DNA from: Bacteroidaceae bacterium
GTDB taxonomy: Bacteria; Bacteroidota; Bacteroidia; Bacteroidales; Bacteroidaceae
Direction: 5' to 3'
NCBI GenBank assembly: GCA_024401225.1
Contig: JAKSLM010000019.1
Span: 1 to 45,893 of the forward strand
Length of the DNA: 45,893 bases
Shown here: piece by piece, positions 29,828 through 41,097 of the stretch
Layout of the letters: the number at the start of each line of letters is the position of its first letter
Numbering within the stretch: position 1 is the first letter of the stretch
Translations under genes and position numbers: made by a program
The notes under the pieces: generated by a model
The model's input: only the letters and a program-made list of their open reading frames with translations
What the model was told of the DNA's origin: nothing
Databases searched by the model: none

Positions 29828-29856
29828 CACATCAATAGAAATACCAAACAAAGCAA

Positions 29857-29896
29857 AGGCTCCCGGCACATCAACGTGTCGGGAGCCTTCTTTTTT
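29857..29896 (+). terminator. Strong intrinsic terminator after prs
   Basis: A GC-rich stem AGGCTCCCGGCACA (29857-29870) / TGTCGGGAGCCT (29877-29888) with a short loop is followed by TCTTTTTT. Confidence 0.88.
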
Positions 29897-30131
29897 AATA
29901 GACGATTAATAATTAGTCCCCTCCTCGCATGGCGCTCCCCCATCCCCTCTCTAAGCCTAGCCCAATAGAAACAAAAGCTTTTAATAAAGCCCTAATAGCC
30001 CACTTTCCCCACTTCCACAAGAATAGGGGAAATATGCATGATAAGCAGCGAATTTCTGCTATATACGACTTAAAAGATGCCAAAAACGTTATTCATAGCA
30101 GGAAATTCCCGCACACCGAATTTCAAACAAC

Positions 30132-30197
30132 ATATACTATCCTATTGAATAAGATATACTATCCTATTGCGGAAGATATACTATCTTATTTGCTATA
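30132..30197 (+). repeat. 22-bp tandem repeat, about three copies
   Basis: ATATACTATCCTATTGAATAAG (30132-30153) is followed by a near copy at 30154-30175 and a third, more diverged copy from 30176. The copies share the core ATATACTATCxTATT. Confidence 0.8.
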
Positions 30198-30253
30198 AGA
30201 CATAGTCTTATCTTGAAAACCTTATTTAGTATGTCATTCATGTATATTCAATC

Positions 30254-30340
30254 TACATACCTACATACCAATATACATGCATATACAGGCGTTCAGCGTA
30301 CTGATATTCTGGCATTTATACATCCGCATGTAGGTATGTA
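30254..30340. repeat. Perfect 13-bp inverted repeat
   Basis: TACATACCTACAT at 30254-30266 and its exact complement at 30328-30340 are separated by 61 bases rich in ATGCAT-like alternating sequence. There is no T run after it, so it is not an intrinsic terminator. Confidence 0.7.
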
Positions 30341-30419
30341 TATAGAAAACACACTTTTTCGCATGTTATAATCGCTTCTTTGGTGGGAACATCCTCATGC
30401 CAGAGCCATGTAACTGAAG

Positions 30420-30708
30420 TGGGGTAAGTGTACATTTATGGGTATTTTCCGAGAGACGATTCGGCGATAACGCATACTGCGGAACTGTCCCAGAGAATCA
30501 TAACAGCGACATAGTAATCGACCTGATGCTAAAGGATTACAACTTCAATCACTCCCCACAACTCATGAAGAGCGATTTCAAGCAACAACTCAAGGCATGG
30601 ATTGAATGTCAGGAAGGTGTGGAATTCAATCCTCTTGACAAGTGCAACAACAAACAAAACCGTCGCATCAGGTACAAAACTAGCTCGTTCGAGAGTATAC
30701 CAGTATAA
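30420..30708 (+). pseudogene. Open reading-frame remnant of unknown origin
   Basis: An open frame continues from an in-frame stop at 30414 to TAA at 30708, with a coherent translation: SVHLWVFSERRFGDNAYCG, then DIVIDLMLKDYNFNHSPQLM, ending RYKTSSFESIP. The only ATG in a sensible position is at 30526, which would drop the N-terminal third. I do not recognise the family. The lack of a start, a truncated look and the position at an island edge suggest the 3' remnant of a gene displaced when the locus was acquired. A short real gene starting at 30526 cannot be excluded. Confidence 0.35.
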
Positions 30709-30852
30709 TCAAGCAGGACAACGACATCGATTTGTCGTGATCCTGTTAATGATTATTCCTTAAAATTTACATTTACAAGCACAGAGTGTTAAAAAATCTA
30801 TACGAAACAGCATTTTTATCGAATCAATTGATCCCAATAGTGATATTTTTAT

Positions 30853-30860
30853 TAACTTTG
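30853..30860 (+). promoter_or_regulatory. Likely promoter of the polysaccharide operon
   Basis: TAACTTTG matches TAnnTTTG, with ATTG 22 bases upstream as a poor -33 element. It lies 116 bases before the first glycosyltransferase and is the only candidate in the 30709-30975 gap. Confidence 0.4.
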
Positions 30861-30975
30861 TGAACTTTAGTTGCTAATCGCTTAAAAATTCTCCAATTAT
30901 AGTTATAGCAATAGCATCAGTACCTATACTCAAAGGTGCTACATCTGATTGATTCGAACAACAAATGAAGGTGAC

Positions 30976-31968
30976 ATGATATTTAATTTTACAATCATCA
31001 TCCCACACTATAATATTCCTGGTCTACTAATCAGGTGCGTTAACTCTATTCCTATTCGTGAAGATATTCAGGTGATTGTTGTAGATGATGGAAGTATCGA
31101 GGGGGAAAATTATCCTCGCAATTATAAGGAGTTAACAAGACCGTATCTTGAATATTATCATTATGACCAGCATATCAATGCGGGGTATGCAAGAAATGTT
31201 GGTTTGAAACATGCAAAGGGCAAATGGCTTATTTTTGCCGATGCGGATGATTTTTTCACCGATGAATTTTTACATATTCTTGATGAACACCTGAATGCTG
31301 AAGAGGATATATTATTCTTCAAGTCAACATCATGTTATTCTAACGACCTGTCAAAAAAAACTGATCGAGCAGAGTTACAAAATAGTTTCATAAATGACTT
31401 ATTAAGTTCTAAGGGCGGATCGGAAGAAAACATCAGATTATATTATGTATCTCCATGGGGTAAGTTTATCAAGAAGAAATTAGTGGATGAATATCAGATT
31501 AAATTTGCTGAAGTTGAATATGCAAACGACATCTATTTCTCTGTGATGACAGGTTTGAAAGCAGACAAGATTATGTGCTTTGACGAACTACTGTATGTGA
31601 TAACTTATCGTCCAGGATCATTAACGAGTAAACGTTTCAAGAGTGCAAAAGAACTTAGGACTAGAATAGAAGTATTATTTCAAGCACAGAAAATAATAAC
31701 AGATAGTGGATATAAACTGGAAGTACAACCTGCAACAATTTATCTTCCGCAAGCAGTTGCGACTAATCCTATTGTGTTTTGGGAATACTGGAATAAATTA
31801 TCCTCTAGTGGTCTTACCAAAAAAAATGCTTTCATTAATATAGTGTCAAAAAGACGCTGGCTAGTGAAGTCAGTTTTTGTACTGATGTTTATTCTTACAA
31901 GTCCCTTGTCGCTGTTTTCTCGTTTTATGAAGCAAGATGTAGGCATTTGCTCCAGAATAAATTATTGA
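30976..31968 (+). CDS. GT2 family glycosyltransferase
   Basis: A 330-residue GT-A fold enzyme. The N-terminus reads FTIIIPHYN, followed by VIVVDDGSIEG, then the family signature YARNVGLKHAKGKWLIFADADDFF with the metal-binding DxD-like acidic cluster. It would transfer a sugar from a nucleotide donor in building the repeat unit. Its C-terminus has one hydrophobic segment (WLVKSVFVLMFILTSPLSLF) that may bind the membrane. I chose ATG 30976, preceded by GAAGGTGAC, over an upstream in-frame TTG (30949). AT-rich codon use contrasts sharply with prs. Confidence 0.88.
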   Translation: MIFNFTIIIPHYNIPGLLIRCVNSIPIREDIQVIVVDDGSIEGENYPRNYKELTRPYLEYYHYDQHINAGYARNVGLKHAKGKWLIFADADDFFTDEFLHILDEHLNAEEDILFFKSTSCYSNDLSKKTDRAELQNSFINDLLSSKGGSEENIRLYYVSPWGKFIKKKLVDEYQIKFAEVEYANDIYFSVMTGLKADKIMCFDELLYVITYRPGSLTSKRFKSAKELRTRIEVLFQAQKIITDSGYKLEVQPATIYLPQAVATNPIVFWEYWNKLSSSGLTKKNAFINIVSKRRWLVKSVFVLMFILTSPLSLFSRFMKQDVGICSRINY

Positions 31969-32039
31969 TGTGGTAATACGACTGATTATAATGTTCATGT
32001 GGACAAACTGTTGGGAGGCCGCTCCAATGTTTCTAAATA

Positions 32040-33110
32040 ATGAATGACATGAAAATAGGTATATTAACATTTCATACTGCACGCAATTATGGTGCTGTTC
32101 TTCAATGCTATGCTCTGCAGGAAACACTAAAGCAATTAGGTCATGATGTAGAAATCATAGATTATCGCCAGAAATGGATTGAATCTATTTATACAACTTT
32201 TAGTTTCCATGTCCTTGCACACAGAAAAGGCTTAAGGAATAAACTGCAATATCTGAAAAACGCCAATAACAGAAGATTAAGAAATAAGCGTTTTAGTGGC
32301 TTTGTTAAACACAATTTACAGTTATCAGAACCATGCAATACTGAGCATAATATTCCACAGAGTTATGACTACTATATCATTGGCAGCGATCAACTCTGGA
32401 GTACAATTTGTTTAGGAGGAACGTTTGATCCCGTATATTGGGGTGATTTCTGTCATCCAAAAAATAGTCGGATAATAGGATATGCAATAAGTTTAGATAA
32501 AGGTTCTATAGACCAAATTGTTAGTAAAAAAATTCCACTCTTTAGTAATTTTTCTTCTCTTTCTCTCCGAGAAAGTTCTGCCATTGAGTCGTTCAAAAGT
32601 ATTAGTACTTTGCCTTTACGGTTAGCAATAGATCCTACTTTATTATGCAAAAGTACAATCTGGGAAGGTTTGATTAATCACGAATACAAGGACCGTAAGT
32701 ATATTGTCTTGTATCAAGTAAGATACCCTATTGAGCGTACATTATTATTTAAAAAGTCTAGAAGACTTGCTTTGCAATATGGTTATGAATTGATAATATT
32801 GTATCCAACACAATATACAGTAGAAGATTTTATATCCATAATTAAATATGCACAGTGTGTAATAACATCGTCTTTTCATGCAACAGTTTTCTCTTTGGTT
32901 TTTGGAACTCCTTTCTACACATACAACCTAAATGATGGAAGGGACGATAGAAACAAGGATCTTTTGGAGCAGGTTGGATGTCTTGATCGAGCAGTCGAAA
33001 TAAGCTTCGAGCCAAAGAAGATAATACCATTGAATAAACAAATGATTGATGCAAACTTAGAGATAATAAGAAAATCATCACTTGAATTCTTGACATCTTC
33101 TTTGAAATAA
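32040..33110 (+). CDS. Polysaccharide pyruvyl transferase family protein (first copy)
   Basis: The 356-residue protein belongs to the PS_pyruv_trans family, whose members attach pyruvate from phosphoenolpyruvate as a ketal or related group on a glycan. Landmarks are the opening KIGILTFHTARNYGAVLQCYALQ, YYIIGSDQLWS and the late TSSFHATVFSLVFGTPFYTY, which together carry the conserved sugar/PEP-binding core. It shares this layout with the second copy at 36631 but is only a distant relative. ATG 32040 or 32049 could be the start. The 72 bases before it contain no clear gene. Confidence 0.85.
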   Translation: MNDMKIGILTFHTARNYGAVLQCYALQETLKQLGHDVEIIDYRQKWIESIYTTFSFHVLAHRKGLRNKLQYLKNANNRRLRNKRFSGFVKHNLQLSEPCNTEHNIPQSYDYYIIGSDQLWSTICLGGTFDPVYWGDFCHPKNSRIIGYAISLDKGSIDQIVSKKIPLFSNFSSLSLRESSAIESFKSISTLPLRLAIDPTLLCKSTIWEGLINHEYKDRKYIVLYQVRYPIERTLLFKKSRRLALQYGYELIILYPTQYTVEDFISIIKYAQCVITSSFHATVFSLVFGTPFYTYNLNDGRDDRNKDLLEQVGCLDRAVEISFEPKKIIPLNKQMIDANLEIIRKSSLEFLTSSLK

Positions 33111-33137
33111 TTGATTGATAAACTAAATGTTATTTAT

Positions 33138-33965
33138 ATGAAAACTAAAATTAACAATTTTATTAAATATATAAAACACGGAGGTGTAACGAATGTAAAT
33201 GTCACATTTGTAAATCCTTCAGAAAGATATGTAGGGAAAAAAGTCTTCGTCTCTGGAGCTAGTGAAGGGATAGGAAAAGCTATTGCTATTGCTTATCTAA
33301 ATGAAGGTGCAGAAGTAATAGTAACTGGACGTGCAAGGACAAAGCTTGAGGTTCTAGAAAACGAACTAGCGTGCAATAGGTTACATACTTATGTATGGGA
33401 TGCATCCGATTTCGCTCTTTACAATACTAAATTTATGGAGATGATAGAAATAATGGGGCATATTGATATATTTATAAATAATGTTGGAGGTGGAATCACA
33501 AAATATGAGGCAGGGTTGGATTATCCAGAAGATGTTCTTGATAGTACTTTTCAGTTGAATTCAAAAAGTATGTTTCTGTTGTGTCAGCTTGAAGGAAAAT
33601 ATATGATTAATAATAATATACATGGCAATATCCTAAATATCACATCGGTTGCTGGTTTCAAAAAGCAGTTTAATCCTTATGCAATGGCAAAATGGGGATG
33701 TAATGCTATTACTGGAGGACTTGCAAGAAAACTTATCCAAAATGATATTGTTGTAAATGGAATTGCCCCAGGTACTTGTTTGACCTCTAACCCTGCGATA
33801 CCACAAGGAAGGGTGTTTAATGAAAATGCTTATTTCCGTGGACATCCATCGCATAGGTTTACTATGCCAGAGGAGATAGCAAAAGCAGCCCTCTATTTGA
33901 CGAGTGGAGAAGCTCGACAAATTGTTGGATATGTATTACCTATTGATGGGGGATCCGCAATATGA
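33138..33965 (+). CDS. SDR family oxidoreductase (first copy) with N-terminal tail
   Basis: A 275-residue short-chain dehydrogenase/reductase. The NAD(P)-binding glycine motif is GASEGIG (40-46), then NNVGGG, a catalytic Ser at about 170 and YAMAK (Tyr 181, Lys 185); the end IDGGSAI is typical. Unlike most SDRs, about 35 residues precede the Rossmann core (KINNFIKYIKHGG then VTNVNVTFVNP), and the second copy has a similar tail. It would reduce a ketone or oxidise an alcohol, probably on a sugar or acyl intermediate. The start ATG 33138 is preferred to the TTG at 33111 that directly follows the previous stop. Confidence 0.88.
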   Translation: MKTKINNFIKYIKHGGVTNVNVTFVNPSERYVGKKVFVSGASEGIGKAIAIAYLNEGAEVIVTGRARTKLEVLENELACNRLHTYVWDASDFALYNTKFMEMIEIMGHIDIFINNVGGGITKYEAGLDYPEDVLDSTFQLNSKSMFLLCQLEGKYMINNNIHGNILNITSVAGFKKQFNPYAMAKWGCNAITGGLARKLIQNDIVVNGIAPGTCLTSNPAIPQGRVFNENAYFRGHPSHRFTMPEEIAKAALYLTSGEARQIVGYVLPIDGGSAI

Positions 33966-34058
33966 AGCTTATTCATTAATGCCTCAAGTTTTTTCATGGA
34001 TATTAATCTTTTTTGCTGAAAGTTGTTATATTGACATTTATAAGACGTTTTCGAGAAT

Positions 34059-34892
34059 ATGTATTTCATAAAACAAATAAAGAGAGTTTTATGTTTATTT
34101 CAGAAAGAACAAGTGACCTATGCAAATATTACATACTCTACTCCTGCCAATTTACTTGCAGGTAAAAAAATATTAATTATAGGAGGTGGACGTGGACTTG
34201 GAGCTGCAATGGCAGAAAAATTCGTAAATGAGGGTGCAGATGTACTTATTTCTGGAAGAAATAATAAAATGTTAAAAGAAACATCAGAGAAAATAGGTTG
34301 TAAATACCTTGCGCTTGATGTATCTGACGTACAGAGCCATGATGATTTCATTAGACAAGCAGATGAATCGTTAGGCGGTATGAATGTACTTGTCAACAAT
34401 GCAGGCATTTCGCTACACGAGAGAACATTCTTTGATGTAACACCTGACTCGTTTGACGAACAGATTAATGTCAATCTAAAGGGCAGTTTTTTTATGGCTC
34501 AAAAGATTATTTCTCTCTGGTTAAAGCGCAAACAGGCAGGTACAATTCTGTTTACATCATCAGAAACAGGCGAAATGGCAGATTATAGACCTTATGGTTT
34601 TACAAAAGCAATGATTAACAGCATGACCCAAGGACTTGCATGCATGTTTGCAAAAAAAGGAATTCGCATTAATGCAATAGCTCCAGGCGTCACATGCTCA
34701 GACATGACAGGTCGTAAGGCTGACGATGACTTGACATTCCGAAAAAATGCTTTAGGCAGAGTGTATCTGCCCGAGGAGGTTGCAGAAACAGCTGCATTTT
34801 TGATTTCTGAATGTTCGGGATGTATTTCAGGACAGATACTAACATGCAATAATGGACGTTCTATTAATACAAGGTTGAAACAATACAGTTGA
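34059..34892 (+). CDS. SDR family oxidoreductase (second copy) with N-terminal tail
   Basis: 277 residues. The glycine motif is GGGRGLG (42-48), then NNAG (in VLVNNAGIS), FTSSETGE with the catalytic Ser, and YGFTK (Tyr 179, Lys 183). The tail before the core (YFIKQIKRV then VTYANITYSTP) parallels that of the first SDR (NFIKYIKHG then VTNVNVTFVNP), so the pair probably arose by duplication. The stop is directly before the MenD-like gene (one base gap), indicating tight translational coupling. The substrate is unknown. Confidence 0.88.
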   Translation: MYFIKQIKRVLCLFQKEQVTYANITYSTPANLLAGKKILIIGGGRGLGAAMAEKFVNEGADVLISGRNNKMLKETSEKIGCKYLALDVSDVQSHDDFIRQADESLGGMNVLVNNAGISLHERTFFDVTPDSFDEQINVNLKGSFFMAQKIISLWLKRKQAGTILFTSSETGEMADYRPYGFTKAMINSMTQGLACMFAKKGIRINAIAPGVTCSDMTGRKADDDLTFRKNALGRVYLPEEVAETAAFLISECSGCISGQILTCNNGRSINTRLKQYS

Positions 34893-34893
34893 A

Positions 34894-36624
34894 ATGAAGA
34901 AGTATTCAAATGACAAAAATGCACTTATGCTTTTATCTCTGTTGAAGGCACATGGTGTAAGAAAAGTTATAGCATCACCAGGGACAATGAATATAGCGAT
35001 TGTTGGTAGTATGCAACATGACAATTATTTCGAAATGTTTTCTTCTGTAGATGAACGGTCTGCTGCTTACATGGCATGCGGTATGGCAGCAGAAAGTGGC
35101 GAGCCTGTAGCAATTGTCTGCACAGAGGCGACAGCATCAAGAAATTATCTCCCCGGTTTGACAGAAGCATATTATCGAAAGCTGCCAGTACTTGCTATTT
35201 GCGGTACTCATGGCGAAGAATTCATAGGACATCTCGGGGCCCAAGTGATTGACCGTAGCCAATCACCAAATGATACTATTATTTATAGCGCATCAATAAA
35301 ACCGGTAACATCCAAGAATATAGCATGGTATAACAATGTAGAAATCAACAAAGCATTAATCAAACTTAGACAAAGAGGAGGAGGCCCTGTCTTAATTAAT
35401 ATTTTTGCAGACGCATATAAACCGTTCAACACAGACGAACTTCCGCCGTGTCGAGTAATTACTCATAAGACGATTGAAGATGTGCTTCCAGATCCACCTA
35501 TAGGTCGGATAGCTGTATTTGTTGGCGCACATGTGCAAATGTCAGAGACCTTACAAAATGCAATTGATGCATTTTGTGCTTCAAATGATTCCGTTGTATT
35601 TTGTGACAACACCAGTGGTTATCAAGGTAAATATCGTTTTCAATCAACCTTGGTACATGGGCAATTTGGACTAAATCATAATATTGACAACCCAGAATTA
35701 TTGATACACATAGGAGAGGTATCAGGTGATACATATACCACCAGCCATCTGAAGCCAAAACAAGTGTGGCGTGTAAGTCCGGACGGAGAGGTAAGAGACT
35801 TGTTTAAAAGACTAAGTGTAGTCTTTGAGATGACAGAACAAAGTTTTTTCGAGCATTATACCTCGGAGGCTGAAGCGAATGATTCTTATTTCAATGAGTG
35901 CAAGATTGCTCTTCAGAATGCACAGAAGAGCATTCCGGAATTCGGATTTGGCAATATATATGTAGCTAGTGTACTGACTCCCATCTTACCCCAAAATAGT
36001 GTTATTCACTTCGGAATATACAATTCTCTTCGCACTTGGAATCTGTTTATGTTAGACCATTCCATCCATTCCGCTTGTAATGTTGGTGGTTTCGGCATTG
36101 ATGGTTCATGTTCTACGCTTATTGGTGCCGCTTTATGTAATCCAGACAAATTATATTTCTTGTGTATTGGTGATCTGGCATTCTTTTATGATTTGAATTC
36201 TTTAGGAAACCGTCATTTACCCTCCAATGTCCGAATTATTTTAGTCAATAATGGGTGTGGAGTAGAGTTTCAGCAGAAGGATCATCCTGGCTCTCGTTTT
36301 GGAAAGGATGCCGGTCTTTATGTGGCTGCAGCAGGTCATTTCGGCAATAAATCTTCCCAATTAGTAAAACATTATACAGAGGATTTGGGATTTGACTATA
36401 GATCGGCAAGTAGCAAAGAAGAGTTAGACAATGTAAAAGAATGGTTTGTTGATTCTACAAAGTCAAGCTCACCAAAGTTCCTTGAAGTCTTTGTTCTATA
36501 CGAAGATGACGTAAATACGCTAGATTCCCTCCGACATTCATTGCCTGATGAGCGTTCATTGGTTGATAAAATGAAGACTGCTGCCAAAAATGAATTAAAG
36601 AAATTTGTAAAAAAGTACATATAG
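34894..36624 (+). CDS. MenD-like thiamine-diphosphate enzyme of a glycan cluster
   Basis: A 576-residue ThDP enzyme. Its closest recognisable relative is MenD (SEPHCHC synthase). An N-terminal Pyr domain (about 1-180) has SPGT at 28-31 and the cofactor-activating Glu54 in DERSAAY. A PP domain has GIDG (401-404) and the ThDP/Mg motif GDLAFFYDLN starting at Gly426 and ending VNN. In MenD, SPGSR carries an isochorismate-binding Arg and SNRGASGIDG carries another; here these read SPGTMN and CNVGGFGIDG, so both Arg are gone (from memory of E. coli MenD). Its position between two SDRs and a pyruvyl transferase argues for glycan work rather than menaquinone. It probably decarboxylates a 2-oxo acid and adds the acyl unit to another carbonyl or acceptor. 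Confidence 0.82.
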   Translation: MKKYSNDKNALMLLSLLKAHGVRKVIASPGTMNIAIVGSMQHDNYFEMFSSVDERSAAYMACGMAAESGEPVAIVCTEATASRNYLPGLTEAYYRKLPVLAICGTHGEEFIGHLGAQVIDRSQSPNDTIIYSASIKPVTSKNIAWYNNVEINKALIKLRQRGGGPVLINIFADAYKPFNTDELPPCRVITHKTIEDVLPDPPIGRIAVFVGAHVQMSETLQNAIDAFCASNDSVVFCDNTSGYQGKYRFQSTLVHGQFGLNHNIDNPELLIHIGEVSGDTYTTSHLKPKQVWRVSPDGEVRDLFKRLSVVFEMTEQSFFEHYTSEAEANDSYFNECKIALQNAQKSIPEFGFGNIYVASVLTPILPQNSVIHFGIYNSLRTWNLFMLDHSIHSACNVGGFGIDGSCSTLIGAALCNPDKLYFLCIGDLAFFYDLNSLGNRHLPSNVRIILVNNGCGVEFQQKDHPGSRFGKDAGLYVAAAGHFGNKSSQLVKHYTEDLGFDYRSASSKEELDNVKEWFVDSTKSSSPKFLEVFVLYEDDVNTLDSLRHSLPDERSLVDKMKTAAKNELKKFVKKYI

Positions 36625-36630
36625 TTTTAG

Positions 36631-37716
36631 ATGAAATTTGGAATATTAACATATCATCGTACGAACAACTATGGTGCATTGTTGCAAGCCGTAGCTACCC
36701 GCTACTATTTGCAGAAGCAAGGACATGAAGTGTACTATATCGATTATTGGCCAGATTATCACCGAGATATGTATGCCTTATTTGACCAAACGCGTTACGC
36801 GCGTAGTGGGTTGCTGATGAAATTATTAATTATAGGACATACTTTGATAAACTACAGTGGAAGGAAGGCAAGAATCAAGAGATTTGAGCCATTTATTGCA
36901 AAATATATAGCACCATATTGCAAACCTTATACAGGATACGAACATTATGAAGTAGTAATATATGGAAGTGACCAGATCTGGCGTAAACAGATTTCATATG
37001 ACAACAGATTCAATCATGTCTATTTTGGAAATAATAAAATCAATGCTGATAGGCACATTGCTTATGCCGCCAGTATGGGCGAGATCAACATTTCGGAAAG
37101 AGATCGGATATTCCTTAAAGATAGCCTGAAAAAATTTGATAGCCTTATGGTGCGAGAAGATGATCTTAATCAGTTACTGCACGAACTTGGGTTCAGTGAA
37201 GCGAGAGTTGTTCTCGACCCGACATTGCTTCTGACATCGGGTGAATGGGATATGTTGATGCCAATTAACAGACTTGTCAAAGAACCTTATGTTATGCTAT
37301 ACCAAATGGATAATTCCATCTCTCGTAAGCACGCAAAAGAGTTTGCCAAAAAACGTAATCTAAAATTAGTGATACTGGGAGCAAAATACGACTGTAAACA
37401 TCCAAATGATATCACCACCACAACACCTGAGGAGTTTCTTTCTCTTATCAAATATGCAGATGTGGTACTTACGAGTTCATACCATGGACTTGTATTTTCC
37501 ATTAACTATAAAAAAAATTTTTATTGCTCATTTAAAAACACTAACAGAGCAAAAACAATACTAGCCGCGATTGGATTGGAAAATAGGATGATGGAGGCAA
37601 GACAGGCATTACCAGAAATAGACCCGGAAATTAATTGGGATGCTGTGTCTGATCAACTAAAACAATATAGAAATAACAGTAAAAACATTTTCCAACAATC
37701 AATAACAACAACCTGA
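36631..37716 (+). CDS. Polysaccharide pyruvyl transferase family protein (second copy)
   Basis: The 361-residue protein has the same family core as the one at 32040: KFGILTYHRTNNYGALLQAVA, VVIYGSDQIWRKQ and TSSYHGLVFSINYKKNFYCS. The surrounding sequence is quite different, so it is a separate family member rather than a recent duplicate. The ATG is six bases after the MenD-like stop, and the next gene starts right after this stop, so the genes form one tight operon. Alternative roles seen in the wider family, such as colanic acid WcaK-like activity, cannot be told apart by sequence alone. Confidence 0.85.
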   Translation: MKFGILTYHRTNNYGALLQAVATRYYLQKQGHEVYYIDYWPDYHRDMYALFDQTRYARSGLLMKLLIIGHTLINYSGRKARIKRFEPFIAKYIAPYCKPYTGYEHYEVVIYGSDQIWRKQISYDNRFNHVYFGNNKINADRHIAYAASMGEINISERDRIFLKDSLKKFDSLMVREDDLNQLLHELGFSEARVVLDPTLLLTSGEWDMLMPINRLVKEPYVMLYQMDNSISRKHAKEFAKKRNLKLVILGAKYDCKHPNDITTTTPEEFLSLIKYADVVLTSSYHGLVFSINYKKNFYCSFKNTNRAKTILAAIGLENRMMEARQALPEIDPEINWDAVSDQLKQYRNNSKNIFQQSITTT

Positions 37717-38808
37717 ATGTCCAGACATGTTCAATCATATTCAGAATTTATTATGATTAAAGAAGTTTTTGAACCTACTACAGACTATAAAGCATTATGT
37801 GTTTGTATAACGTACAATCAATCACAATATATAACGCAAGCGATGGATGGCTTTACACGACAAAAGACCAGCTTTCCATACGTATGCTGCATAGTGGATG
37901 ATGCAAGCAGTGACAATGAGCCAGAGGTAATAGAGGAGTATATAAACCAACATTTCATACCAGAAACTCGAGAAATATTAGATTTGCCATCTGCCAAGCT
38001 AATTATAGCAGTACATGCAGAAAACTGTAACTGTACATTTGCTGCTATCTTGTTAAAGACAAATCTATGGATGAATCCGGAAGAGAAAGATAAGCTTATT
38101 GCTCCATGGAGATCGCATAGTGAGTATGAGGCACTATGTGATGGGGATGATTATTGGTTTGATTATGAAAGTTTACAAAAACAAATTTCTTTTTTAGACA
38201 AAAACCCTGATATCGGTTTTATATATGCTAAAGCTCACCGTCTGAAAGATGGGGAAAATGAGTACTCCGGAGTTTGGGGCAGGGGTATCTCTAACTACAT
38301 GGAACTGTTGACAGAATCAAGTTGCATACCTACTTCAACGGCTTGTTACAGAACGAAATTAGCAACAGAATATCATGCAATGCGTAAAAACGATCCCATA
38401 TGGCCGTTGCCCGATGTAACACTTTGGATGTTCATGCTATATAGAACGAAAGTGTATTTTGTCGATGAATTTATTGCTGTATATCGAGAACTTCCGGAAT
38501 CTGTATCTCACTCATTGGATTTTTACAGGAAATTGTCTTTTTGCGAAGCTGCTTATGATTGCAGAGCGTTTTATGCAAAGAGATATTGGGGAGATAGTGC
38601 GGAAAAAGCTGTGCGGGAAAAGCAGATAAGAATTGCAGCAAACATGAGTTTGCGTGTATCAAAATTCCACAAGAAAGATTTGCTTAGTCGCATGCTCAAA
38701 TATAAGATATTTGATATAAAGTTATTCATGCTGGTTTTACTTTCGTATACATGGTTGACGAGACACATATATAAGCATACAAAATCAATATTCAAGATAA
38801 TGAGATGA
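37717..38808 (+). CDS. GT2 family glycosyltransferase (second)
   Basis: A 363-residue GT-A enzyme. After a 25-residue lead it shows LCVCITYNQSQYITQAMDGF, then CIVDDASSDNEPEVI, and the acidic metal-binding cluster YEALCDGDDYWFD. This last pattern is common in polysaccharide GT2 enzymes. The C-terminus has a hydrophobic segment (KLFMLVLLSYTWLTRHIY). The ATG abuts the previous stop (TGAATG). A second ATG at 37753 would also give a complete domain. It presumably adds one sugar to the exported glycan. Confidence 0.88.
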   Translation: MSRHVQSYSEFIMIKEVFEPTTDYKALCVCITYNQSQYITQAMDGFTRQKTSFPYVCCIVDDASSDNEPEVIEEYINQHFIPETREILDLPSAKLIIAVHAENCNCTFAAILLKTNLWMNPEEKDKLIAPWRSHSEYEALCDGDDYWFDYESLQKQISFLDKNPDIGFIYAKAHRLKDGENEYSGVWGRGISNYMELLTESSCIPTSTACYRTKLATEYHAMRKNDPIWPLPDVTLWMFMLYRTKVYFVDEFIAVYRELPESVSHSLDFYRKLSFCEAAYDCRAFYAKRYWGDSAEKAVREKQIRIAANMSLRVSKFHKKDLLSRMLKYKIFDIKLFMLVLLSYTWLTRHIYKHTKSIFKIMR

Positions 38809-38873
38809 TACACTATAAAAATTAGATGTTTTTTATAATTATGTTATATTGGTAAGTCACAGTTTAAGAAATA

Positions 38874-39758
38874 ATGAATCCTAATGAAGTAATCTCCCAT
38901 ATTGAGTCAAAGAAGAAATGGCTTGATGTGGACATCAAAGGACTCTGGCGATACAGAGACCTTTATTACATGTACATCAAACGTGACATCATCACGCAAT
39001 ACAAGCAGACGATTTTAGGACCTGCGTGGTATCTCATCCAGCCACTCTTCACCACCATCATGTATATGTTCGTTTTCGGTGGTCTGGCTGGCATCTCTAC
39101 AGATGGTGTGCCACAGCCATTGTTCTATATGTGCGGTATTTGTCTTTGGCAGTACTTCAACAGCTGTTTCACCTCATGCAGCTACGTATTCGTAGCCAAC
39201 CAAAGAGTCTTTGGAAAGGTATATTTCCCACGCCTAGTAGTCCCATTGAGTTCTGTCACCAGCAATCTCATACGTTTTGGTATCCAGTGGCTTATGTTCG
39301 TGCTTATCCTTATTTATTATATCGTCTTCAAGGACTATGCCCCAAGTTTCGGCTTTATCAACGACTATGGCATGAGGGTAGGACTATTGTTAACGTTTGT
39401 GTTCCCCATCATCAGCGTCTTCATGATAGGTATGCACGCAATGTCCTGGGGACTAATCATCACTTCTCTCACCACTAAGTATCGTGACCTCAATATGCTC
39501 ATCGCCTTCGGTGTCCAACTCTTGATGTATGCCACCCCTGTGATATACCCACTTTCCTTCGCACCAGAAAAATATCGTTCGATTATTAATATCAATCCTC
39601 TCACTCCAATCTTCGAGATTTTCAAATACACCTTTGTGGGTGCCGGTACCCTTGACATTATCAACCTCGCATACAGTGCCTTTACCCTTTGCATCGTGAT
39701 GTTCTTCGCTGTTATTCTCTTCAACCGAACAGAACAACGCTTTATGGATACTGTGTAA
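38874..39758 (+). CDS. wzm: Wzm-like polysaccharide ABC transporter permease
   Basis: A 294-residue ABC-2 type permease with about six transmembrane helices. The opening LWRYRDLYYMYIKRDIITQYKQTILGPAWYLIQPL is the hallmark of the TagG/Wzm/KpsM group, and GMHAMSWGLIITSLTTKYRDLN with the late PVIYPLSFAPEKYR also fits. With the Wzt ATPase 43 bases downstream it exports undecaprenyl-linked polysaccharide across the inner membrane. Codon use returns to host-like values here, unlike the AT-rich genes on its left. Confidence 0.92.
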   Translation: MNPNEVISHIESKKKWLDVDIKGLWRYRDLYYMYIKRDIITQYKQTILGPAWYLIQPLFTTIMYMFVFGGLAGISTDGVPQPLFYMCGICLWQYFNSCFTSCSYVFVANQRVFGKVYFPRLVVPLSSVTSNLIRFGIQWLMFVLILIYYIVFKDYAPSFGFINDYGMRVGLLLTFVFPIISVFMIGMHAMSWGLIITSLTTKYRDLNMLIAFGVQLLMYATPVIYPLSFAPEKYRSIININPLTPIFEIFKYTFVGAGTLDIINLAYSAFTLCIVMFFAVILFNRTEQRFMDTV

Positions 39759-39801
39759 TCTTCAGGTGAGTACTCAAACAAAAGAATAAATTTTTGGGAA
39801 T

Positions 39802-41097
39802 ATGTTAGATAAAAATATAGCAATAGAATTCAATAATGTTGGTAAGCAATACCGTCTGGGACTTGTCGGTACTGGAACCCTCAAGCACGACCTTAACCGC
39901 TGGTGGCAGACCACGATACTCGGTAAGGAAGACCCATATCTCAAAATCGGCGAAGTCAATGACCGATCCACAAAAGGTAACTCGGACTATGTCTGGGCAC
40001 TGAAAGACATCAGTTTCAAGATCGAGCAAGGTGACGTTGTTGGAATCATTGGCAAGAATGGAGCAGGCAAGAGTACCCTACTAAAGCTCCTCAGCCACAT
40101 TACAGCCCCAAGCACAGGCACTATCGCCTATAGAGGACGTATAGCATCATTACTTGAAGTTGGCACAGGCTTCCACCCAGAGATGACTGCCAGACAGAAT
40201 ATATACATGAATAGTTCAATCATGGGCATGACCAAGCATGAAATTGACATAAAACTCGATGAGATAGTTGACTTCGCAGGCATCGAACGCTACCTTGATA
40301 CCCCAGTAAAGCGTTTTTCCTCAGGCATGACTGTTCGTCTTGGCTTTGCTGTTGCTGCATTCCTCGAACCCGAAATCCTCGTTGTTGACGAAGTTCTCGC
40401 TGTTGGCGATGCTGAATTTCAGAAGAAAGCAATCGGTAAGATGAAGGATGTATCGTCTTCTGGGGGAAGAACAGTATTGTTCGTTTCTCATAACATGACA
40501 GCTGTAAAGCAACTTTGCAAGAGTGGCATTATATTAGAGAATGGACAAATCTCATATTCTGGAACCTCAGAAAATGCTATCGAAAAATATTTTGCTTTTG
40601 ATCCTAATGAAATGGCGAAACCGTTTTGTAAAAGAACAGATCGTTATGGAAACGGAAAAATTAGAGTCAACAACATAATTCTCAGGAATATCAATGGCAA
40701 AGAAATGACGGAGGCATTCGTTGGCCAATATTTGAGGATAGAGTTCCATATTGATGTTGAAGAAGGTATTGATTTGTCAAACATGGTTGTGATATGTGCT
40801 TTTCTGGATATGTTTGGTAGGTCATCTGTAACCTGGGGGTCTGATGAAATTGCCCACGATTTCGGAGGAATAAAGGATGGTGTATTCTCGCTTGTTATTC
40901 CTTCTCTGACATTGCGGCCAAATACGTACAATCTCAAGTTCGTTATTTCTCTTAATACGACAAAACTAAAGGATTTGTGTGATGCGATGAATGGAGCATT
41001 ACAGTTAACAATACTAAATGACGATTTCTTCTCTAAAGGAATCAATCTGCATGCAAATAGGGGATATTCTGCTATAATGCCTGCAAATTTTGAATAA
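39802..41097 (+). CDS. wzt: Wzt-like polysaccharide ABC transporter ATPase with cargo-binding C-terminal domain
   Basis: 431 residues. The ATPase domain has Walker A IGKNGAGKST (about 88-97), LSHITAPSTG, the signature FSSGMTVRLGFA, Walker B EILVVDEVLAVGD and the switch His in FVSHNM. From about residue 270 a beta-sandwich C-terminal domain follows (RVNNIILRNINGKEM, QYLRIEFHIDVEEGIDLSN and TLRPNTYNLKFVISLN), the Wzt_C type that recognises the glycan terminus before export. Codon use changes from host-like to AT-rich at about base 40490, near the end of the ATPase domain. Confidence 0.92.
   Translation: MLDKNIAIEFNNVGKQYRLGLVGTGTLKHDLNRWWQTTILGKEDPYLKIGEVNDRSTKGNSDYVWALKDISFKIEQGDVVGIIGKNGAGKSTLLKLLSHITAPSTGTIAYRGRIASLLEVGTGFHPEMTARQNIYMNSSIMGMTKHEIDIKLDEIVDFAGIERYLDTPVKRFSSGMTVRLGFAVAAFLEPEILVVDEVLAVGDAEFQKKAIGKMKDVSSSGGRTVLFVSHNMTAVKQLCKSGIILENGQISYSGTSENAIEKYFAFDPNEMAKPFCKRTDRYGNGKIRVNNIILRNINGKEMTEAFVGQYLRIEFHIDVEEGIDLSNMVVICAFLDMFGRSSVTWGSDEIAHDFGGIKDGVFSLVIPSLTLRPNTYNLKFVISLNTTKLKDLCDAMNGALQLTILNDDFFSKGINLHANRGYSAIMPANFE

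Follow-up and report, generated by a model that had tools for sequence, protein, structure and literature searches.

A recurrent module with a MenD-like thiamine diphosphate enzyme in bacterial surface-sugar clusters that probably builds an unusual acid side chain

The stretch of DNA analysed here (the window; 45,893 nucleotides, contig JAKSLM010000019.1 of the Bacteroidaceae bacterium assembly GCA_024401225.1) carries an island of nine genes, spanning 30949 to 41097, in which two short-chain dehydrogenases/reductases (SDR1 and SDR2) and a MenD-like thiamine diphosphate (ThDP) enzyme are encoded in one operon on the + strand, with intact reading frames and in the order given by the initial annotation. 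The island runs GT2, polysaccharide pyruvyl transferase (PPT1), SDR1, SDR2, ThDP enzyme, PPT2, GT2, Wzm and Wzt (Table 1). The ThDP gene indeed begins exactly one base after SDR2, as had been claimed, and only 6 bases separate it from PPT2, but the tight packing described for the whole cassette does not extend to SDR1 and SDR2, which lie 93 bases apart. The pyruvyl transferase-family genes reported on both sides are genuine members of PF04230, and no further PF04230 gene was found in the genome, which is 84% complete. As set out below, the ThDP enzyme recurs with a reductase and a PPT as a module of surface-sugar clusters, which probably builds an unusual acid side chain by a route not described before.

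Table 1. Genes of the island (window positions)
Feature	Coordinates	Strand	Evidence and remarks
GTa, GT2-family glycosyltransferase, first island gene	30976..31968	+	PF00535 E 1.2e-18; reading frame open from TTG at 30949
PPT1, PF04230 polysaccharide pyruvyl transferase family	32040..33110	+	PF04230 106.4 bits (cut-off 25.3)
SDR1, classical SDR, ketoreductase type, basic N-terminal extension	33138..33965	+	adh_short_C2 E 8e-38; start at ATG 33138, upstream TTG at 33111 possible
SDR2, classical SDR, in the module's main SDR group	34059..34892	+	adh_short_C2 E 3.9e-47
MenD-like ThDP enzyme, 576 aa, altered substrate site	34894..36624	+	TPP_enzyme_N; menD model below cut-off
PPT2, PF04230 polysaccharide pyruvyl transferase family	36631..37716	+	PF04230 129.4 bits (cut-off 25.3)
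GTb, GT2-like glycosyltransferase	37717..38808	+	PF00535 E 8.9e-10, scanned from 37756; start at ATG 37717, second in-frame ATG at 37753
ABC-2 polysaccharide export permease, Wzm type	38874..39758	+	PF01061 E 5.5e-16
ABC (ATP-binding cassette) polysaccharide export ATPase	39802..41097	+	PF00005 E 5.2e-23; weak Wzt_C, 26.3 bits, below cut-off 30.4

Gene neighbourhoods were compared across 106 non-redundant members of the ThDP clade, the window included, after four near-identical loci and nine more distant ThDP proteins (L045-L053) had been left out; in two loci, L088 and L091, no ThDP open reading frame (ORF) was picked. The lack of co-occurrence elsewhere that the initial annotation had named as a refutation is not seen: reductase genes lie within one, two and three genes of the ThDP gene in 77, 90 and 92 of the 106 loci, and PPT genes in 64, 79 and 83, with both present within three genes in 74 loci and neither in 5. 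Farther out in the same loci (offsets 4-9), such reductases account for 3 and PPTs for 8 of 811 background genes, and the arrangement is therefore not due to chance. The profiles used to recognize the two classes derive from the first locus set, so that unusual members are missed. What recurs, however, is not the anticipated three-gene neighbourhood in full, since the usual partners of the ThDP gene are one reductase and a PPT rather than two SDRs. The common order in Bacteroidota loci is Wzx, SDR, ThDP, PPT, GT2, and the first four of these genes also adjoin each other in two other genomes from the order to which Shewanella hanedai belongs. The reductase slot is filled by three types of enzyme, namely classical SDR, extended SDR and aldo/keto reductase (AKR). 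Natural fusions tie the parts together: in five loci (L149, L152, L153, L154 and L155) PF04230 and TPP_enzyme_N domains form a single protein of 980-1194 aa, and in L145 an AKR and 4Fe-4S domains are fused ahead of the ThDP part.

Within the family Bacteroidaceae, 45 of 251 genomes contain a match to the ThDP protein at an E value of 1e-60 or better; among the matches listed, 31, that of the window included, are at least 45% identical, and the rest, some of which are of MenD type, are 30-36% identical. An alignment-based contig search (A1) yielded at least 588 stretches, at least 582 of which encode a relative at tblastn E values up to 1e-3, a threshold that does not imply clade membership. 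In the best 80 of these stretches, which were kept, the ThDP relatives are 40-60% identical and come from Bacteroidota, Bacillota, Pseudomonadota, Spirochaetota, Verrucomicrobiota and others, as judged from organism names. An earlier contig search with the single ThDP protein as query confirmed no relative. A 41% identical relative lies inside a capsule-like cluster on a plasmid of Ruminococcus albus 7, and among 394 genomes of the order to which S. hanedai belongs, three, its own included, have the ThDP gene at E 1e-70. Cultured carriers include S. hanedai JCM 20706, Cyclobacterium plantarum and Proteiniphilum acetatigenes DSM 18083. Viral contigs gave no match to the ThDP protein, and at the DNA level no match to the S. 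hanedai gene was seen in complete Escherichia coli genomes.

A TPP_enzyme_N domain is recognized in the ThDP protein, for which menD (TIGR00173) is the highest-scoring NCBIfam model, at 154.8-155.4 bits against a cut-off of 244.2, whereas a separate MenD gene on contig C51 of the same genome scores 303.7 bits. Its relatives in the Protein Data Bank (PDB) are led by MenD (best E 1.9e-44), with acetolactate synthases appearing only from E 4.7e-15, in a comparison that included no YerE sequence. The AlphaFold model (predicted local distance difference test score 88.9) retrieved MenD entries as all of the best 50 of 433 Foldseek matches (E up to 0.001), at template modelling (TM) scores of 0.42-0.52 and root-mean-square deviations of 17-19; we take these values to reflect the placement of domains in the single-chain model. 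The active-site residues of Staphylococcus aureus MenD and their roles are named in the available passages of PMC9835592, where Gln119 is printed as Glu119; they were mapped, in S. aureus numbering, through the alignment of the PDB search and counted in the 106 clade members. The catalytic Glu is found in 105 members (the exception being the truncated L044), and the ThDP Asp and Asn (GD...N motif) and the equivalents of Gln119 and Arg394 in all 106. By contrast, the equivalents of Arg34 (Lys in two members) and Arg411 are present in none, and that of Arg108, in a loop whose alignment is less sure, is present in 15 and missing in 91. The position of Ile470 (Glu458 in the window protein) is occupied by Glu in 103 members, with two gaps and one Gln. 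Arg83, found in 104 members, is absent from the MenD-type proteins L051-L053, the last of which comes from the window's own genome, and these three keep Arg34, Arg108, Arg411 and Ile470.

The enzyme thus resembles MenD (SEPHCHC synthase) in its fold, ThDP site, catalytic Glu and Gln119 and Arg394 equivalents, and probably in its acyl-anion chemistry. Since MenD substrate residues are absent while the ThDP residues are kept, much of the isochorismate and 2-oxoglutarate site appears to have been lost and the ThDP chemistry retained. That the protein is a second MenD serving menaquinone synthesis, placed in a sugar cluster incidentally, would agree with menD being its best family model, but is highly improbable in view of its score under the cut-off beside a full MenD elsewhere in the genome, the loss in every clade member of the Arg34 and Arg411 equivalents that the three MenD-type proteins keep, and the glycan context across many phyla. 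Judging from the sequences, we conclude from the separate MenD and the two missing arginines that the ThDP protein is not MenD. The view that the ThDP enzyme, reductases and pyruvyl-transferase-family genes form a glycan-building cassette is borne out by its recurrence in distant phyla and by the location of the genome's MenD outside it, and the cassette very likely represents a glycan module distinct from MenD.

Four of the more distant proteins that had been left out, L047-L050, are MenD-like, lie in glycan loci and keep more of the MenD arginines than the clade does. L047 has equivalents of Arg34, Arg108, Arg411 and Ile470, whereas in L048-L050 Arg34 and Arg108 are retained and the Ile470 position is taken by Glu; these proteins are possible donor variants.

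Classical SDRs are recognized by a glycine-rich NAD(P) motif and Ser...Tyr-x-x-x-Lys, both of which could be read in the translations of SDR1 and SDR2, and each protein matches adh_short and adh_short_C2. The best PDB matches of SDR1 are proteins named glucose/ribitol dehydrogenase and 3-oxoacyl-ACP (acyl carrier protein) reductase, and those of SDR2 include SiaM and FabG proteins. In the tree of module SDRs, SDR2 is nested among those of other loci, whereas SDR1 forms a long lone branch, for which reason it may have a separate task or stereochemistry. PPT2 has no sequence relative in the PDB at E 0.1 or better and groups in the PPT tree with the PPTs adjoining the ThDP relatives of L054 and L077. 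The listed SDRs begin with a basic, mostly amphipathic-looking stretch, and in a set of 103 ThDP proteins that includes near-duplicates, the C-terminal 40 residues show a best-window hydrophobic moment averaging 0.47, compared with 0.39 after shuffling, and carry a net charge of +3.0; the corresponding values for the tails of the three MenD-type proteins are 0.40 and -1.3. These basic amphipathic tails suggest that the enzymes work at the membrane, on lipid-linked acceptors. In L037 (8522-9136), L054 (10863-11408), L077 and L146, the AKR and ThDP genes are separated by one for a small protein whose N-terminus is hydrophobic or basic; this protein has no Pfam match in the copy scanned (L054) and is perhaps a membrane anchor for the soluble reductase.

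PF04230 enzymes use phosphoenolpyruvate (PEP), and MenD catalyses the 1,4-addition of an acyl anion to an unsaturated carboxylate, isochorismate. On this basis we tentatively propose, as a real but far from settled possibility, a three-step route. The PPT would move PEP onto a sugar hydroxyl of a membrane-bound glycan precursor to yield an enolpyruvyl ether, CH2=C(OR)COO-, without closure of the usual ketal; the ThDP enzyme would decarboxylate a 2-oxo acid, most simply pyruvate, and the resulting acyl anion would attack the CH2 end of the acrylate, the same type of 1,4-addition as that of MenD, to give R-O-CH(COO-)-CH2-CO-CH3, a 2-O-linked 4-oxopentanoate; and the SDR, replaced elsewhere by an extended SDR or AKR, would reduce the ketone. 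The end product would be a sugar 2-ether of 2,4-dihydroxypentanoic acid (+116.047 Da). We infer all substrates, the order of the steps and the product. Of the arginine pair with which MenD holds the intermediate formed from 2-oxoglutarate, one member has been lost, which would fit a smaller donor such as pyruvate, and three interchangeable reductase types would be expected for a simple carbonyl reduction. The two PPTs and two SDRs of the window could serve two sugars or two stereoisomers, followed by export through Wzm/Wzt. Unlike in ketal-forming PF04230 systems, the PPT is here coupled to, and in the five fusion loci joined with, a ThDP enzyme, and its product is probably not a plain ketal.

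The predicted residue matches one that is known from Providencia alcalifaciens. According to the available passages of PMC10609480, the O-antigens of this species contain 2,4-dihydroxypentanoic acids, as stereoisomers, in ether linkage to different monosaccharides, with 2-ethers on mannose listed for O31 (Shashkov 2008 being cited as the primary paper), and no gene set is assigned to the residue in these passages. The prediction from the three enzyme classes was set down alongside the title of a paper on Providencia O31 and the search for that residue. Some of the Klebsiella types K8, K22, K37 and K66 are said to carry lactyl ethers. In the passages available of PMC4616057, these four types have a pyruvyltransferase gene, yet a capsule without pyruvylation, and 16 homology groups are distinguished among the pyruvyltransferases, which agrees with the idea that PPTs specific for their acceptors accompany a ThDP enzyme that stays the same. 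Literature searches in one collection found no paper with this gene set.

The initial annotation had likened the cassette to yersiniose synthesis, in which YerF is the carbonyl reductase partner of YerE. By analogy, the ThDP enzyme would attach a two-carbon or longer unit from a 2-oxo acid at the ketone of a keto sugar carried on a nucleotide or lipid; the reductase would then act on the ketone in the new side chain, and the PF04230 protein would add pyruvate or transfer the sugar. The two systems do share a ThDP carboligase and a carbonyl reductase within a surface-glycan cluster (that of yersiniose A in the case of YerE/YerF), and the presence of one carbonyl reductase per ThDP gene fits this route, as do makers of 4-keto-6-deoxy sugars, with RmlB above its cut-off in 32 of 34 carrier genomes and Polysacc_synt_2 in 6 of 6; Gmd exceeds its cut-off in 4 of 6. 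The comparison falters, however, at the enzyme itself, which, in comparisons that included no YerE sequence, appears MenD-derived rather than akin to the acetolactate-synthase-type carboligases, and at the substrate: YerE works on a CDP (cytidine diphosphate) keto sugar, according to the source passages, whereas none of the nine island genes was recognized as making a keto sugar and no dehydratase was seen among the recurrent neighbours identified, and RmlB is under its cut-off in two carriers, G113 and G256, the latter also lacking Gmd above cut-off. Nor would this route explain why a PPT is so often the partner or why PPT-ThDP fusions exist. The RmlB, Gmd and Polysacc_synt_2 counts neither prove nor exclude a YerE-type route, which we consider unlikely while granting it an appreciable chance. 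The same two RmlB exceptions led us to discard dTDP (deoxythymidine diphosphate)-4-keto-6-deoxyglucose as a universal acceptor, though not as an acceptor in general.

The interchangeable classical SDR, extended SDR and AKR would also suit an aldehyde substrate, and the ThDP enzyme might accordingly be a decarboxylase that turns a 2-oxo acid into an aldehyde, to be reduced to an alcohol that a transferase attaches, as such or as its phosphate, to the glycan. LicD, cytidylyltransferase or glycerophosphotransferase-like genes do occur in a few loci, but a cytidylyltransferase-type gene was noted in four only (L034, L038, L131 and L140), and a free small aldehyde would explain neither the PPT-ThDP fusions nor the membrane-type tails, which makes this alternative rather unlikely. 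Closer to the proposed route is one with the same three steps and another donor, such as 2-oxoglutarate or 2-oxobutyrate, leading to a longer ether-linked dihydroxy acid. It would account for the Arg394 equivalent, which in the available description of MenD holds the 2-oxoglutarate intermediate and is kept in all 106 members, and for the additional MenD arginines of the related glycan-locus proteins L047-L050; the second arginine of the 2-oxoglutarate pair is lost throughout the clade, however, and no such longer residue turned up in the literature searches made, and we regard this variant as improbable.

Several observations weigh against the enolpyruvyl ether route or against a fixed module. 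The described work of the PF04230 family is the formation of ketals, the donor could be another 2-oxo acid, and the PPTs beside ThDP genes come from several lineages of the PPT tree rather than from one clade. No reductase was recognized within three genes in 14 of the 106 loci, one of these being the AKR fusion. Twenty-three loci have no separate PPT within three genes, and when 21 of their genomes were searched for PF04230, 16 contained a match and five (L080, L098, L104, L107 and L136) did not. Fusion genomes account for four of the 16, and in three of these no PF04230 match lies outside the frame of about 1000 aa; with the fusion genomes set aside, a PF04230 gene was present in 12 of 17 genomes and absent from five. 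The ThDP gene of L080, L104 and L136 is located at the end of a contig, in L098 an acyltransferase gene (PF01757), in two pieces, occupies the place of the PPT, and in L107 two unassigned ORFs stand there; these five genomes count against an absolute need for a PPT. Finally, the ThDP gene, and with it the module, was found at E 1e-70 in none of 392 genomes of the family of G306, in a search that had no positive control and included genomes of only 0.5 Mb. This family is probably Enterobacteriaceae, G306 being probably enterobacterial because its lepA is 82% identical to that of E. coli. The link to Providencia is chemical, not genomic, and the 392 genomes need not include an O31 strain.

The island is flanked by a prs gene on one side and rnf-type genes on the other, named from their translations, and its G+C content, 37.4%, is lower than that of the sequence on its left (47.9%) and on its right (51.1%). 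Among 29 prs loci with flanks of up to 1.5 kb, none had rnf genes, so that insertion of the island could not be demonstrated in this way. The 1.1 kb without an assigned gene on the 5' side of the island (29828-30948) contains a 22-nt repeat in three tandem copies (30126-30191) and an imperfect inverted repeat of 35 nt (30241-30353); it may have a regulatory role or be the scar of a recombination event. The window locus ends in the ABC exporter Wzm/Wzt (38874-41097), whereas a Wzx flippase is encoded within three genes of the ThDP gene in 61 of the 106 loci. The four loci with a cytidylyltransferase-type gene encode, near the ThDP gene, a protein that in L038 has cytidylyltransferase and GFO/IDH domains, and aminotransferase, LicD or TagF-like genes are also present in some of them, which suggests that a CDP-activated unit is made by a second, linked pathway. 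A phosphonate reading of R. albus-type loci, involving PEP mutase, was dropped when the Pfam domains of the L038 protein proved to be cytidylyltransferase and GFO/IDH; PEP mutase itself was not searched for.

More broadly, the extension of PEP-derived enolpyruvyl ethers on sugars by a MenD-like conjugate addition, followed by reduction, might constitute a new glycan chemistry across many bacterial phyla, a generalization that we regard as possible but doubtful. If it is true, the module would resemble a small acyl-extending assembly line and produce a family of dihydroxy acids in ether linkage, their length depending on the donor that the ThDP enzyme uses, and the siblings L047-L050, with their more numerous MenD arginines, would take 2-oxoglutarate (+174.053 Da). 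Many bacterial surface glycans carry acidic ether groups for which no biosynthetic route is known to us or came up in the literature searches. With a widespread module that predicts one exact residue, such groups could be recognized from genome sequences; if the mechanism holds, it would also represent a further natural role for MenD-type conjugate addition.

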